Shown piece after piece: positions 7,794-57,663 of a stretch of 64,000 nucleotides of DNA. Made by a program: the position numbers and the translations under genes. Positions within the stretch are counted from its first letter, which is position 1. Every line of letters begins with the position of its first letter. The notes below the pieces were generated by a model. The model had not been told where the DNA came from and made no database searches. It saw only the letters and a list, made by a program, of their open reading frames with translations. This DNA comes from an uncultured Prevotellaceae bacterium (lineage in GTDB: Bacteria > Bacteroidota > Bacteroidia > Bacteroidales > Bacteroidaceae), in assembly GCA_947169115.1 (NCBI GenBank), contig CAMVOK010000002.1, positions 1 to 64,000 of the forward strand, written 5' to 3'.

Positions 7794-9182
7794 ATGGAAT
7801 ATATATATATAATAATAGGTATAGGGATAGGTCTGGTTGTCGCTTACTTCTTAGTGGCAAAACAACGCACGCAAATTGCTTTGCTGGAGCAAGAAAAGAA
7901 ACATTTGGAGGAAACGGCTCAGAAGGAGCGGACGGATGCGGCTAACTATGTGATGGAATTGGAGGCCCGTCATAAAGAACAATTGGATGAGCAAAGGGTA
8001 CAACATAAAGAACAATTGCAAAAAACAGAGACACAGTATCAAGAGGCACTGAAACAGATGAATCTTCAGCATGAAGAGCAGATGCGGCAACAGATGACAC
8101 TCATCAAGGCTGAAATGAATACAGCCTCGGAGCGCATACTAAAGGAACGTGCCGAGCAATTGTCCTCGGCTAATAAGGAACAGTTGGCCACTATACTGAA
8201 TCCATTACAGACTCATATCCAGCAGATGCGAGAGGCGGTGGAGAAAAGCGACCGTGAGCAGACGGCAACCATGCAGCGTCTTGATGCCTCCATAAAGACC
8301 AGTTTCGAACTAAGCCGCAGGGTGGGGGAACGAGCCGACAGGCTTACGCAAGCATTGACAGGCGAGAATAAGACCCAGGGAAACTTTGGCGAGCTTCGCC
8401 TGAAGCAATTGCTCGAGGAAATGGGACTTGAAGAAGGTGTGCAATTTGAATTGCAGGAAACGATGAAGGACAGCGAAGGACGCACCATCTATGAAGAGGA
8501 AGGTCATCGCATGATTCCCGATGCCATCCTGCATTTCCCTGACCAACGAGATGTTATCATTGACTCTAAGATGTCGTTTACCGCATTTGAGGATTACCAC
8601 AATGCTCAAACCGAAGAACAACGACAGGATGCTTTGCGTCGGCATATAGCCAGTATGCGAGCACATGTTTCGGAACTATCTCGCAAGAATTATACAAAAT
8701 ACATCAAAGAGAATCGTGCAAGGCTCGATTTCGTACTTATGTATGTGTTCTCAGAGTCGGCTCTGAACTTAGCACTCTCCAATGCTCCCACGTTATGGAA
8801 GGAAGCCTATGACAAAGGCGTGGTTATCAGTGGCTCTCAGAATCTATATATGATGCTGCGCGTATTGGAAATGACATGGCGACAAGTACGTCAGGTTGAG
8901 AACCAACAACAAATCATGCAATTGGCGAATCTTATGGTTGATCGTGTGCAATTGTTCGCAGAACGTATGAATGAGGTGCGTCGTCAATTTGAGAAGACAA
9001 GTGAGGCTTTTGAGAAGGTCCAGGCAAGTACTGCCGACAATGGCCAAAGCATCATCACCACAGCTCGTCAACTTCTGAAGATGGGGGCGATAGAGAATCC
9101 GAAACGAAAGAAATCCTTGAAAGACACACAAAACGTGCTTGAAGTTCCTTTTGTTGAAGACGAAAAAGAAAATAATCTTTAA
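7794..9182 (+). CDS. rmuC: DNA recombination protein RmuC
   Basis: N-terminal TM plus coiled coil; GNFGELRLKQLLEEMGL; DSKMSFTAFEDY. Confidence 0.92.
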   Translation: MEYIYIIIGIGIGLVVAYFLVAKQRTQIALLEQEKKHLEETAQKERTDAANYVMELEARHKEQLDEQRVQHKEQLQKTETQYQEALKQMNLQHEEQMRQQMTLIKAEMNTASERILKERAEQLSSANKEQLATILNPLQTHIQQMREAVEKSDREQTATMQRLDASIKTSFELSRRVGERADRLTQALTGENKTQGNFGELRLKQLLEEMGLEEGVQFELQETMKDSEGRTIYEEEGHRMIPDAILHFPDQRDVIIDSKMSFTAFEDYHNAQTEEQRQDALRRHIASMRAHVSELSRKNYTKYIKENRARLDFVLMYVFSESALNLALSNAPTLWKEAYDKGVVISGSQNLYMMLRVLEMTWRQVRQVENQQQIMQLANLMVDRVQLFAERMNEVRRQFEKTSEAFEKVQASTADNGQSIITTARQLLKMGAIENPKRKKSLKDTQNVLEVPFVEDEKENNL

Positions 9183-16878: not shown

Positions 16879-17265
16879 ATGGAAGATTTTTATTATCGGA
16901 ACCTAAAAGTATATGAACAAGCCAAGCAATTGGTTGCAGATGTATATGCTCTTACGCGTATGTTCCCGCCTCAGAAATTGTATGGGTTAACAAACCAGAT
17001 ACAACGTGCGGCAATATCTGTACCATCTAATATTGTTGAGGGCATGGGGCGATTCTCGCTGAAAGAACGAATCCATTTCATCGAGATAGCATATGGTTCG
17101 ATGATGGAAACAATGTGTCAGTTGGAATTATCTGAAATGTTAGGATATATCACTCCCGAAGTATTAACAGAGCAGGATGATAAAATCAGGCGATTGTCAC
17201 GTATGCTTCTGGGATTAAAACATTCGTTTGAAGAGAAACAGAATATTATTAACCAGACAAGGTAG
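16879..17265 (+). CDS. Four-helix-bundle protein (S23 / 23S-IVS-encoded type)
   Basis: NLKVYEQAKQLVADVYALTRMFPPQKLYGLTNQIQRAAISVPSNIVEGMGRFS. Confidence 0.92.
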   Translation: MEDFYYRNLKVYEQAKQLVADVYALTRMFPPQKLYGLTNQIQRAAISVPSNIVEGMGRFSLKERIHFIEIAYGSMMETMCQLELSEMLGYITPEVLTEQDDKIRRLSRMLLGLKHSFEEKQNIINQTR

Positions 17266-27834: not shown

Positions 27835-27917
27835 TAGTGGGCAACGCCTCCGAATGTTGCAGGAGAGATGGTTGACTTCCGTTTCCTGCACGCAACGCTC
27901 GGAGGCGTTGCCCACTA
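27835..27917. repeat. Long hairpin element (TAGTGGGCAACGCCTCCGA..GCAGGA / TCCTGCA..CGGAGGCGTTGCCCACTA), copy A
   Basis: Near-identical element at 56277-56358. Confidence 0.88.
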
Positions 27918-54571: not shown

Positions 54572-54721
54572 ATGAGAAAGAAAACTTACGAGAAACTAAA
54601 CATGAAGGTAATCTCCCTCAGTCAGGAGAACCACCTGATGGTAGCCAGCGACCCCACGACGAACGAGGTAAACGCCACACGCAATAACTACAGCGGCGGT
54701 GCCGCATGGGAATGGATGTAA
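54572..54721 (+). CDS. 49-aa small peptide, not in ORF track
   Basis: MRKKTYEKLNMKVISLSQENHLMVASDPTTNEVNATRNNYSGGAAWEWM. Confidence 0.7.
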   Translation: MRKKTYEKLNMKVISLSQENHLMVASDPTTNEVNATRNNYSGGAAWEWM

Positions 54722-54786: not shown

Positions 54787-56256
54787 ATGAAGAATATATT
54801 CAATAAGATGTTGGGCGTGTGCCTGACAGTTGTAGCCAGTGCCATGTTCACAGGTTGCTCCAGCGACGAAGAAGCAGTCTCCCAAAGTGCGCCCCAGACG
54901 GGCAAGTTCACCTTGACGGTACGTGCCGAGAAGCAGGGCGTCACACGTGCCCTGGCCATATCCGACGTGGACGGTGACGGGCGCGACGACGTTCAGGCCA
55001 CCTGGACGGCCGGTGACGAGGTACAGGTATTCGATGCCACTACGGGCAATGCCCTGACGGGCGTTCTCACTGCCCAGGGCAGCGGAGCCTCCACGTTGCT
55101 GACGGGAACCGTGGAGGGCACGGTGTCGGTCGGCGATGCCCTGAGGCTGACCTACCTCTCCAGCGACTACAGCAGTCAGGACGGCACGCTGCAGTACATA
55201 GCTGAGAACTGCGACTATGCCGAGGCCACGGTTACGGTGGGCTCGGTGGAGAACGGTGAGGTTACGCCCACGGGCAATGCCGAGTTCGTGAATGCCCAGG
55301 CCATCGTGTGCTTCACATTGATGGAAGTTACAGGTGCTCCCCTCAGTGCCAGTGCCCTGACTGTGGACTATACCACAGGCTCCGTCACCCTTGCTGACGT
55401 CCCATCCTCCACCTACACGGCCAACGGTGGCACGGGTGTTCTCTTCGTAGCTCTTCCTCCCGTCAGCCAGCAGGCCATTACCTTGACAGCCACGGTGGGT
55501 GACGATACCTATACCTACGCCACCTCCTCAGCCGTAACACTCGCAGCTGGTCAGTACCAGCCCATCAGCGTGACGATGACGAAGGAAGTTGTGGACAGGT
55601 CAGGTGTAATAGACGGACGTGCCTACGTTGACCTCGGTCTTCCCAGTGGAACCTTGTGGGCAACCTGCAACGTGGGTGCCGACAATCCCGAAGACTATGG
55701 CCTGTATTTTGCCTGGGGTGAAACTACTGGCTATACGCAGGACACTTCCGACGGCCATAGTTTCGGCTGGGCATCGTACAAATATTACAATGGAGATAAT
55801 GTTGCCCTTACCAAGTACTGCGACGACAGCAGTTATGGCTATAATGGCTTCAAGGACAATTTGACCGAACTCCTCCCCGAGGACGATGCCGCTACGGCCA
55901 ACTGGGGCAGCGGGTGGCGCATGCCGACAATAGAACAGTTTGAGGAACTCATCAACAGCAGTTACACCACCACCACTTGGACTACGCGTAACGGCAAGTA
56001 TGGTAGATTGATAACGAGCAAGATGTCAGGCTACACTAACAGGAGCATTTTCCTGCCGGTCGCAGGGTATCGCTACGATTCGTCGCTCGGCTACGCGGGT
56101 TCGTACGGTTTCTGCTGGTCGCGTACGCTCGGCGCGGGCGGCGCGGGCCCGGGCGGTGCCCGTTACCTGGGCTTCGGTTCGAGCTACATCAGCGCGGACG
56201 GCGACTCCTATCGTTGCTTCGGTCAATCTGTTCGCCCTGTGCGCGTGTCTCAGTAA
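54787..56256 (+). CDS. Surface lipoprotein with FISUMP/CLec-like C-terminal domain and putative DGR variable region
   Basis: Lipobox FTGCSS; YVDLGLPSGTLWATCNVGA; C-terminal GSYGFCWSRTL...GQSVRPVRVS. Confidence 0.85.
   Translation: MKNIFNKMLGVCLTVVASAMFTGCSSDEEAVSQSAPQTGKFTLTVRAEKQGVTRALAISDVDGDGRDDVQATWTAGDEVQVFDATTGNALTGVLTAQGSGASTLLTGTVEGTVSVGDALRLTYLSSDYSSQDGTLQYIAENCDYAEATVTVGSVENGEVTPTGNAEFVNAQAIVCFTLMEVTGAPLSASALTVDYTTGSVTLADVPSSTYTANGGTGVLFVALPPVSQQAITLTATVGDDTYTYATSSAVTLAAGQYQPISVTMTKEVVDRSGVIDGRAYVDLGLPSGTLWATCNVGADNPEDYGLYFAWGETTGYTQDTSDGHSFGWASYKYYNGDNVALTKYCDDSSYGYNGFKDNLTELLPEDDAATANWGSGWRMPTIEQFEELINSSYTTTTWTTRNGKYGRLITSKMSGYTNRSIFLPVAGYRYDSSLGYAGSYGFCWSRTLGAGGAGPGGARYLGFGSSYISADGDSYRCFGQSVRPVRVSQ
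56058..56250 (+). other. Putative DGR variable region with 3' end resembling an IMH
   Basis: Run of NNC/NNT/NNG codons compatible with AAC-type template codons after adenine mutagenesis; ends GGTCAATCTGTTCGCCCTGTGCGC. Confidence 0.72.
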
Positions 56257-56276: not shown

Positions 56277-56358
56277 TAGTGGGCAACGCCTCCGAGCGTT
56301 GCAGGACAGATGATTGACTTCTTTTCCTGCAAGCAACGCTCGGAGGCATTGCCCACTA
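56277..56358. repeat. Long hairpin element, copy B
   Basis: TAGTGGGCAACGCCTCCGAGCGTTGCAGGA / TCCTGCAAGCAACGCTCGGAGGCATTGCCCACTA. Confidence 0.9.
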
Positions 56359-56475: not shown

Positions 56476-57663
56476 TTACTTCAGCACGCCCAGTTCTTTG
56501 CCTACTTTGATGAAGGCATTGATGCACTTGTCGAGGTGTTCACGACGGTGACCAGCTGAGAGCTGCACGCGGATGCGAGCCTGTCCCTTCGGAACAACGG
56601 GATAGTAGAAGCCCGTGACGTAGATGCCTTCTTCCTGCATCTTGGCGGCAAATACCTGTGACAGCTTGGCATCGTAGAGCATGACAGCACAGATGGCACT
56701 CTGTGTGGGCTTGATGTCGAAGCCGGCAGCCATCATCTTGTCGCGGAAGTAGTTGACGTTCTCTACCAAACGGTCGTGTAGCTCGTTGCTCTCCTTGAGC
56801 ATCTTGAAGACTTCGAGACTGGCACCAATGATACCGGGAGCCAGGGAGTTGGAGAACAGATAAGGACGACTGCGCTGGCGCAAGAGGTCGATGATTTCCT
56901 TACGGCCTGTCGTGAAGCCTCCCAGAGCACCACCGAAGGCTTTGCCTAATGTGCCCGTGTAGATGTCAACACGACCGTAGGTGTTGTAGAACTCGCTTAC
57001 GCCGTGGCCTGTTGCACCTACCACACCTGCCGAGTGGCTCTCGTCCACCATCACCAGGGCATCGTACTTTTCTGCCAGGTCGCAAATCTTGTCCATAGGA
57101 GCAACGTTGCCGTCCATGGAGAACACGCCATCGGTAACCACGATGCGGAAACGTTGTGCCTGTGCCTCTTGCAGACACTTCTCCAGTTCTGCCATATCGG
57201 CATTGGCATAGCGATAGCGCTTAGCCTTGCAAAGACGTACACCGTCAATAATCGAAGCATGGTTCAGGGCATCCGAGATTATGGCATCCTCCTCGGTCAA
57301 CAGAGGTTCAAACACACCACCATTGGCATCGAAACAAGCCGCATAGAGGATGGTATCCTCCGTCTTGAAGTAATCGCTGATGGCAGCCTCCAGTTGCTTG
57401 TGAATGTCCTGTGTGCCACAGATGAAACGTACACTCGACATACCGAAGCCACGTTCGTCCATCATCTTCTTGCTGGCCTCGATGAGCCGTGGATGGTTGG
57501 AGAGGCCCAGATAGTTATTGGCACAGAAGTTGAGTACTTCCTGGCCTTTTACTTGAATGGCAGCCTGCTGTGGGGTCTCAATGAGGCGTTCCTCCTTATA
57601 GAGGCCAGCCTCGCGAATCTCGGCCAGTGTCTGGCAGAGGTGTTCTTTCATTTTTCCGTACAT
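56476..57663 (-). CDS. kbl: Glycine C-acetyltransferase (2-amino-3-ketobutyrate CoA ligase)
   Basis: NFCANNYLGLSNHP; DGVFSMDGNVAPMDKICDLAEKYDALVMVDESHSAGVVG. Confidence 0.94.
   Translation of the reverse strand: MYGKMKEHLCQTLAEIREAGLYKEERLIETPQQAAIQVKGQEVLNFCANNYLGLSNHPRLIEASKKMMDERGFGMSSVRFICGTQDIHKQLEAAISDYFKTEDTILYAACFDANGGVFEPLLTEEDAIISDALNHASIIDGVRLCKAKRYRYANADMAELEKCLQEAQAQRFRIVVTDGVFSMDGNVAPMDKICDLAEKYDALVMVDESHSAGVVGATGHGVSEFYNTYGRVDIYTGTLGKAFGGALGGFTTGRKEIIDLLRQRSRPYLFSNSLAPGIIGASLEVFKMLKESNELHDRLVENVNYFRDKMMAAGFDIKPTQSAICAVMLYDAKLSQVFAAKMQEEGIYVTGFYYPVVPKGQARIRVQLSAGHRREHLDKCINAFIKVGKELGVLK

Follow-up and report, generated by a model that had tools for sequence, protein, structure and literature searches.

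A probable orphaned DGR variable region at the 3′ end of a lipoprotein gene in an uncultured Prevotellaceae bacterium

In Treponema denticola isolates without a reverse transcriptase (RT) and template repeat (TR), target genes bearing a variable region (VR) of a diversity-generating retroelement (DGR, a naturally occurring system of targeted mutation) have been described as remnants (PMC4891356). Cyanobacteria possess remote variable proteins, one of which retains remnant TR-VR homology and has no proximal RT (PMC7517822), and Thiohalocapsa PB-PSB1 carries trans-diversified as well as degenerate DGR loci (PMC10907252). A large metagenomic survey points out that remote targets would escape its approach (PMC8144416). 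The most frequent domain reported among DGR target genes is DUF1566 (PMC6642488).

Here we describe a lipoprotein gene from an uncultured Prevotellaceae bacterium whose 3′ end is very probably DGR-written. The window (the whole stretch that was analyzed) is 64,000 nucleotides long and belongs to genome G000, an assembly of 2,735,323 bases in 39 contigs that is 87% complete. The features are as follows.

54572 to 54721, + strand: small 49-aa ORF directly upstream of the target gene (from the sequence; homologue at the C13 locus)
54787 to 56256, + strand: DGR-type target gene, encoding a 489-aa lipoprotein (from the ORF)
54787 to 54860, + strand: putative signal peptide of the lipoprotein, including the lipobox cysteine, MKNIFNKMLGVCLTVVASAMFTGC (by eye from the translation)
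55621 to 56253, + strand: FISUMP/Lcl_C-like domain with the VR at its end (alignment, AlphaFold2 model, phage-model match)
56050 to 56247, + strand: putative VR, A-depleted and differing from relatives' TR mainly at TR adenines
56227 to 56256, + strand: conserved 3′ end (SVRPVRVSQ, stop), the presumed site of a putative IMH-like element (C13 copy, alignment)

The target lipoprotein and the composition of its 3′ end

The 489-aa protein has a predicted lipoprotein-type signal (MKNIFNKMLGVCLTVVASAMFTGC-SSDEE), in which the lipobox FTGC is followed by an acidic run past its cysteine. Beyond this lie a weakly fimbrillin-like middle and a FISUMP/Lcl_C-like C-terminal domain, which ends in ...RCFGQSVRPVRVSQ and is presumably surface-exposed and ligand-binding. 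Pfam returned a weak fimbrillin-like match mid-protein, and both Lcl_C (which we take to be the former DUF1566) and Fib_succ_major at the C terminus, the latter two below threshold; searched alone, the C-terminal domain matched no Pfam family at E ≤ 0.01. We aligned this domain with those of 23 relatives: 11 of the 24 sequences matched Lcl_C (best E = 1.7e-9), and the SVRPV near the end is almost invariant among the aligned relatives. AlphaFold2 modeled the domain with a pLDDT of 90.1. Its sole significant match to a viral model was to a phage Fibrobacter succinogenes major paralogous domain protein (E = 5.8e-4), and phage and plasmid collections held distant homologues only, in Lak phages (35% identity) and on a Prevotella nigrescens plasmid (34%). 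A search of solved structures with the domain model gave no significant match; C-type-lectin entries appeared as weak, noise-level matches and were set aside, and matches to actinohivin (E about 0.004) spanned only about 32 residues and were of no use.

The VR runs from 56050 to 56247, at the 3′ terminus of a gene that ends at 56256. The initial annotation had noted an abruptly G/C-rich gene end, and its composition bears this out: between 56050 and 56250, GC climbs to 0.70 to 0.71 and AT skew drops to values between about −0.45 and −0.53. Adenines make up 17 of the 198 nucleotides of the VR (8.6%), compared to 22.9% in the remaining gene, and no other of 12,762 198-nucleotide stretches of the window (both strands) has so low an adenine content. 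As also noted at the outset, no RT adjoins the gene; the next gene downstream is kbl (56476 to 57663, − strand).

An inverted repeat begins 21 nucleotides past the target-gene stop (56277 to 56358) and recurs in the window at 27839 to 27913, with 26-nucleotide arms (TAGTGGGCAACGCCTCCGAGCGTTGC) and 30 nucleotides between them. Its family is dispersed, with 22 half-sites across the genome; the core half-sites mostly occur as facing pairs, giving a REP/MITE-like appearance. We considered this repeat as a possible DGR target-site hairpin and did not retain it; it is genome-dispersed and not VR-specific.

Adenine-directed divergence and third codon positions

The TR used here for comparison is that of G154, a genome of the same family but another genus, so the adenine map is approximate for the window VR. 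The G154 DGR is complete and canonical, comprising a lipoprotein target with a FISUMP-type end, an accessory ORF, a TR, and an RT; its cis VR departs from its own TR at 26 of the 53 adenines but at only 1 of the 135 remaining bases. In a codon-aware alignment with this TR, the window VR carries a different base opposite 39 of 53 TR adenines (74%) and opposite 26 of the 130 remaining TR bases (20%; p = 1.3e-11), an 80% match at non-adenine sites. By codon position, the changed adenines are 24 of 26 at first, 14 of 25 at second, and 1 of 2 at third positions: adenine-directed changes fall on the first two positions and third positions are kept. Third positions hold 17 of the 26 non-adenine differences, as expected from drift between species. 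Divergence was adenine-specific against five TRs from other genomes (best p = 6.9e-12), the four other than that of G154 giving p values between 2.5e-11 and 4.6e-8.

The portion of the domain upstream of the VR served as a control. There, adenines and other bases change alike (for example, 24% versus 23% between the window gene and C16a), with one marginal case in eight (G021, p = 0.047), whereas in the VR the comparisons with relatives show 62 to 85% of adenines and 21 to 46% of other bases changed. Thus, the adenine-specific mismatch pattern that the initial annotation had proposed as a check was seen with a foreign TR, 39/53 versus 26/130. With this pattern against a relative's TR and a clean upstream control, the data support a DGR-type VR within a FISUMP-like domain.

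Third codon positions point the same way. Between the window gene and its paralogue C16b, 41% of third positions differ upstream and 18% in the VR, while codons with a first- or second-position change rise from 30% upstream to 46% in the VR. The same pattern of kept third positions and freer first and second positions recurs with C6 and with G057, from another species; across the three comparisons, third-position difference is 18 to 24% in the VR and 41 to 54% upstream. Such a combination fits template copying, and fits neither protein-level selection nor a GC-rich foreign insert. The effect is missing in C16a and C4, which look older or less closely related.

DGR machinery in the genome and its relatives

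The initial annotation placed an RT, Avd, and TR elsewhere, which would make the gene a target diversified in trans. Our searches of G000 did not recover that machinery. An RVT_1 profile had no match in the assembled genome, and a DGR RT profile that we made from eight RTs of relatives likewise found none in this 87% complete assembly. Nucleotide queries made from the VR and from an inferred TR yielded no template repeat, only VR-like gene ends (two on C16, one each on C6 and C2) and a 30-nucleotide tail on C13; neither a near-identical template nor a DGR RT beside it was found in the assembly. The Avd model NF033474 gave two weak matches and no genuine Avd; we read both as four-helix 23S rRNA IVP-type proteins and discounted them. 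A gene for a four-helix-bundle protein of this IVP type, weakly Avd-like by profile, is present in the window at 16879 to 17265, and a second copy lies on contig C19 (L151). TR- and VR-derived patterns had no match in viral contigs.

The C13 tail (G000:C13:20842-20871) is 97% identical to the 3′ end of the VR gene. At G000:C13:20797-21120 (− strand; L022 around 8797 to 9120), a homologue of the 49-aa ORF is followed at once by the last 30 nucleotides of the VR gene. We dropped this match as a TR end, with the small-ORF homologue before it and the same 3′ flank after it; given these two features, the site appears to be a copy of the window locus minus the gene body.

Four VR-bearing genes, the window gene and three unlinked paralogues, lie at separate loci in G000. 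Their VRs differ from one another at 11 to 31% of the positions that are not adenine in the foreign TR; part of this arises because their own TR must have carried some other adenines, but third-position differences (TAC/AAT, GGT/GGC) and in-frame indels cannot stem from a single template in current use. Judged by these sequences, one TR cannot at present be serving all four genes. With no RT, Avd, or TR in G000 and no common non-adenine backbone among the four VR genes, present diversification in trans, as initially proposed, is not supported. Among the four, the window VR is the most fully randomized, with changes at 74% of TR adenines, and it lies in an intact gene. FISUMP paralogues on C22 and C11 that are not A-depleted show weak or no adenine bias.

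Of 139 congeners, about 14 contain a full-length or fragmentary DGR RT. A strict TR pattern had no match across these 139; TR/VR-like matches (E ≤ 1e-5) were found in 33 of them, only 7 of which have a DGR RT, one of these partial. In congeners G064, G066, G010, and G037, matches to the inferred TR adjoin RVT_1 matches, and the RTs have the DGR-type motifs IGNL[ST][ST]Q and [YF]VDD. The DGRs in the genus include one carried by a prophage. In the species genome collection, a TR-type pattern picked out AAC-rich templates in four Bacteroidales records (L111, L113, L114, and L115); in three of these records, a DGR-type RT adjoins the TR within the examined stretch. L111 (CAMOWU010000015.1, from a MAG titled "uncultured Bacteroides sp.") and the G154 DGR are one and the same locus.

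The DGR target in G064 (C13; L103:6092-8059, − strand) joins a protein-kinase-like gene to a FISUMP-type VR domain, and an accessory ORF, Avd, TR, and RT come after it. DGRs of two genera encode an accessory protein of 160 to 185 aa between the target gene and the TR: in G064 at L103:5496-5990 (− strand), and in G154 (C15, − strand; L149) as an ORF of about 184 aa flanked by VR and TR. The two proteins are 27% identical and share a SAWL motif, and all Pfam and NCBIfam families fell below cutoff for them. In both G154 (L149) and the G037 prophage (L106:4436-5893), the RT ORF traverses the TR as one open frame.

Origin and present state of the variable region

That the window VR was written by a DGR is, in our view, very probable; that it is also now orphaned is the reading we favor, with less assurance. 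A Bacteroidales-type DGR would have written the 3′ end of the lipoprotein gene: an AAC-codon-rich template RNA would have been copied by an adenine-error-prone RT, and the resulting cDNA would have replaced the gene end, turning AAC-type codons into GGC, TAC, TTC, TGC, GAC, and AGC. Such mutagenic retrohoming would belong to the past, the DGR having presumably been lost later, and diversification is presumably inactive at present. Most likely, the window VR and its unlinked paralogues are orphaned, fixed remnants of earlier diversification whose genes have been kept intact.

The strongest competitor, although rather unlikely, is that the gene is an active trans target whose RT/Avd/TR cassette lies in the unassembled 13% of G000 or on a mobile element outside the bin. 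The assembly is indeed incomplete, DGRs (one of them prophage-borne) are present in the genus, the most randomized of the four VRs sits in an intact gene, and trans diversification is documented elsewhere (PMC10907252). However, neither TR nor RT was found in assembled G000, and the paralogue backbones differ at non-adenine sites, which excludes a common current template for at least most of them. The differing VR backbones, together with the common orphan state in congeners, favor a relic over an active trans target. Congeners are mostly 80 to 90% complete, so missing sequence alone would not explain the absence of an RT from them, albeit hypervariable or mobile loci may drop out of bins more than average. 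A related, improbable scenario is that several unlinked FISUMP lipoproteins of the genus are resident targets of an unlinked DGR that is mostly off the assembled chromosome; if so, targets persist while the mutator comes and goes, for instance on a mobile element present in part of the population.

It is very unlikely that horizontal transfer or gene conversion from a DGR-bearing strain brought in the VR gene, or just its 3′ end, by itself, and that no diversification ever took place in the present lineage. Related VR backbones do occur across species and genera, and loss or gain of single targets has been discussed for T. denticola (PMC4891356); against this, the four VR genes occupy separate loci in G000, and their flanking domains diverge as expected for resident paralogues. 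Least probable is an A-poor end produced by diversifying selection, a composition shift, or a GC-rich foreign insert without any DGR: the TR is available only from a foreign genome and A-depletion alone inflates mismatches at TR adenines, but this explanation is largely refuted by an upstream domain that lacks the VR's adenine bias, VR third positions that are better conserved than those upstream in combination with freer first and second positions, the 80% match to the foreign TR at non-adenine positions, and the C22 and C11 paralogues, which lack A-depletion and have weak or no adenine bias.

A DGR-written VR can thus be recognized in the absence of its RT by means of the TR of a related organism. 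In most congeners found to carry TR/VR-like sequences, 26 of 33, no DGR RT was detected, and RT-centered surveys would miss them. If these are relics, DGR diversification often ends with the mutator lost and one variant fixed; if they are instead diversified in trans, DGRs reach further than current counts show.

Of the DGRs compared here, that of G154 also has a lipoprotein target with a FISUMP-type domain ending in ...GQSVRPVRV and the VR at its 3′ end, and its TR can be aligned over its full length to the window VR. Unlike the window gene, for which no machinery was found, its target is adjoined by the accessory gene, TR, and RT, and its VR equals its TR at 134 of 135 non-adenine bases. The cyanobacterial and Thiohalocapsa systems differ in having at least one TR and RT in the same genomes, whereas none was found in G000; they resemble it in having VR genes distant from or without an RT and several dispersed paralogues per genome. 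In T. denticola, the match was shown with TRs of the same species, whereas the window VR is matched only with TRs of other species; what the two share is VR-bearing targets in genomes without a DGR core. The window VR is thus a further case, from Bacteroidales, of the remnant or remote targets already described.
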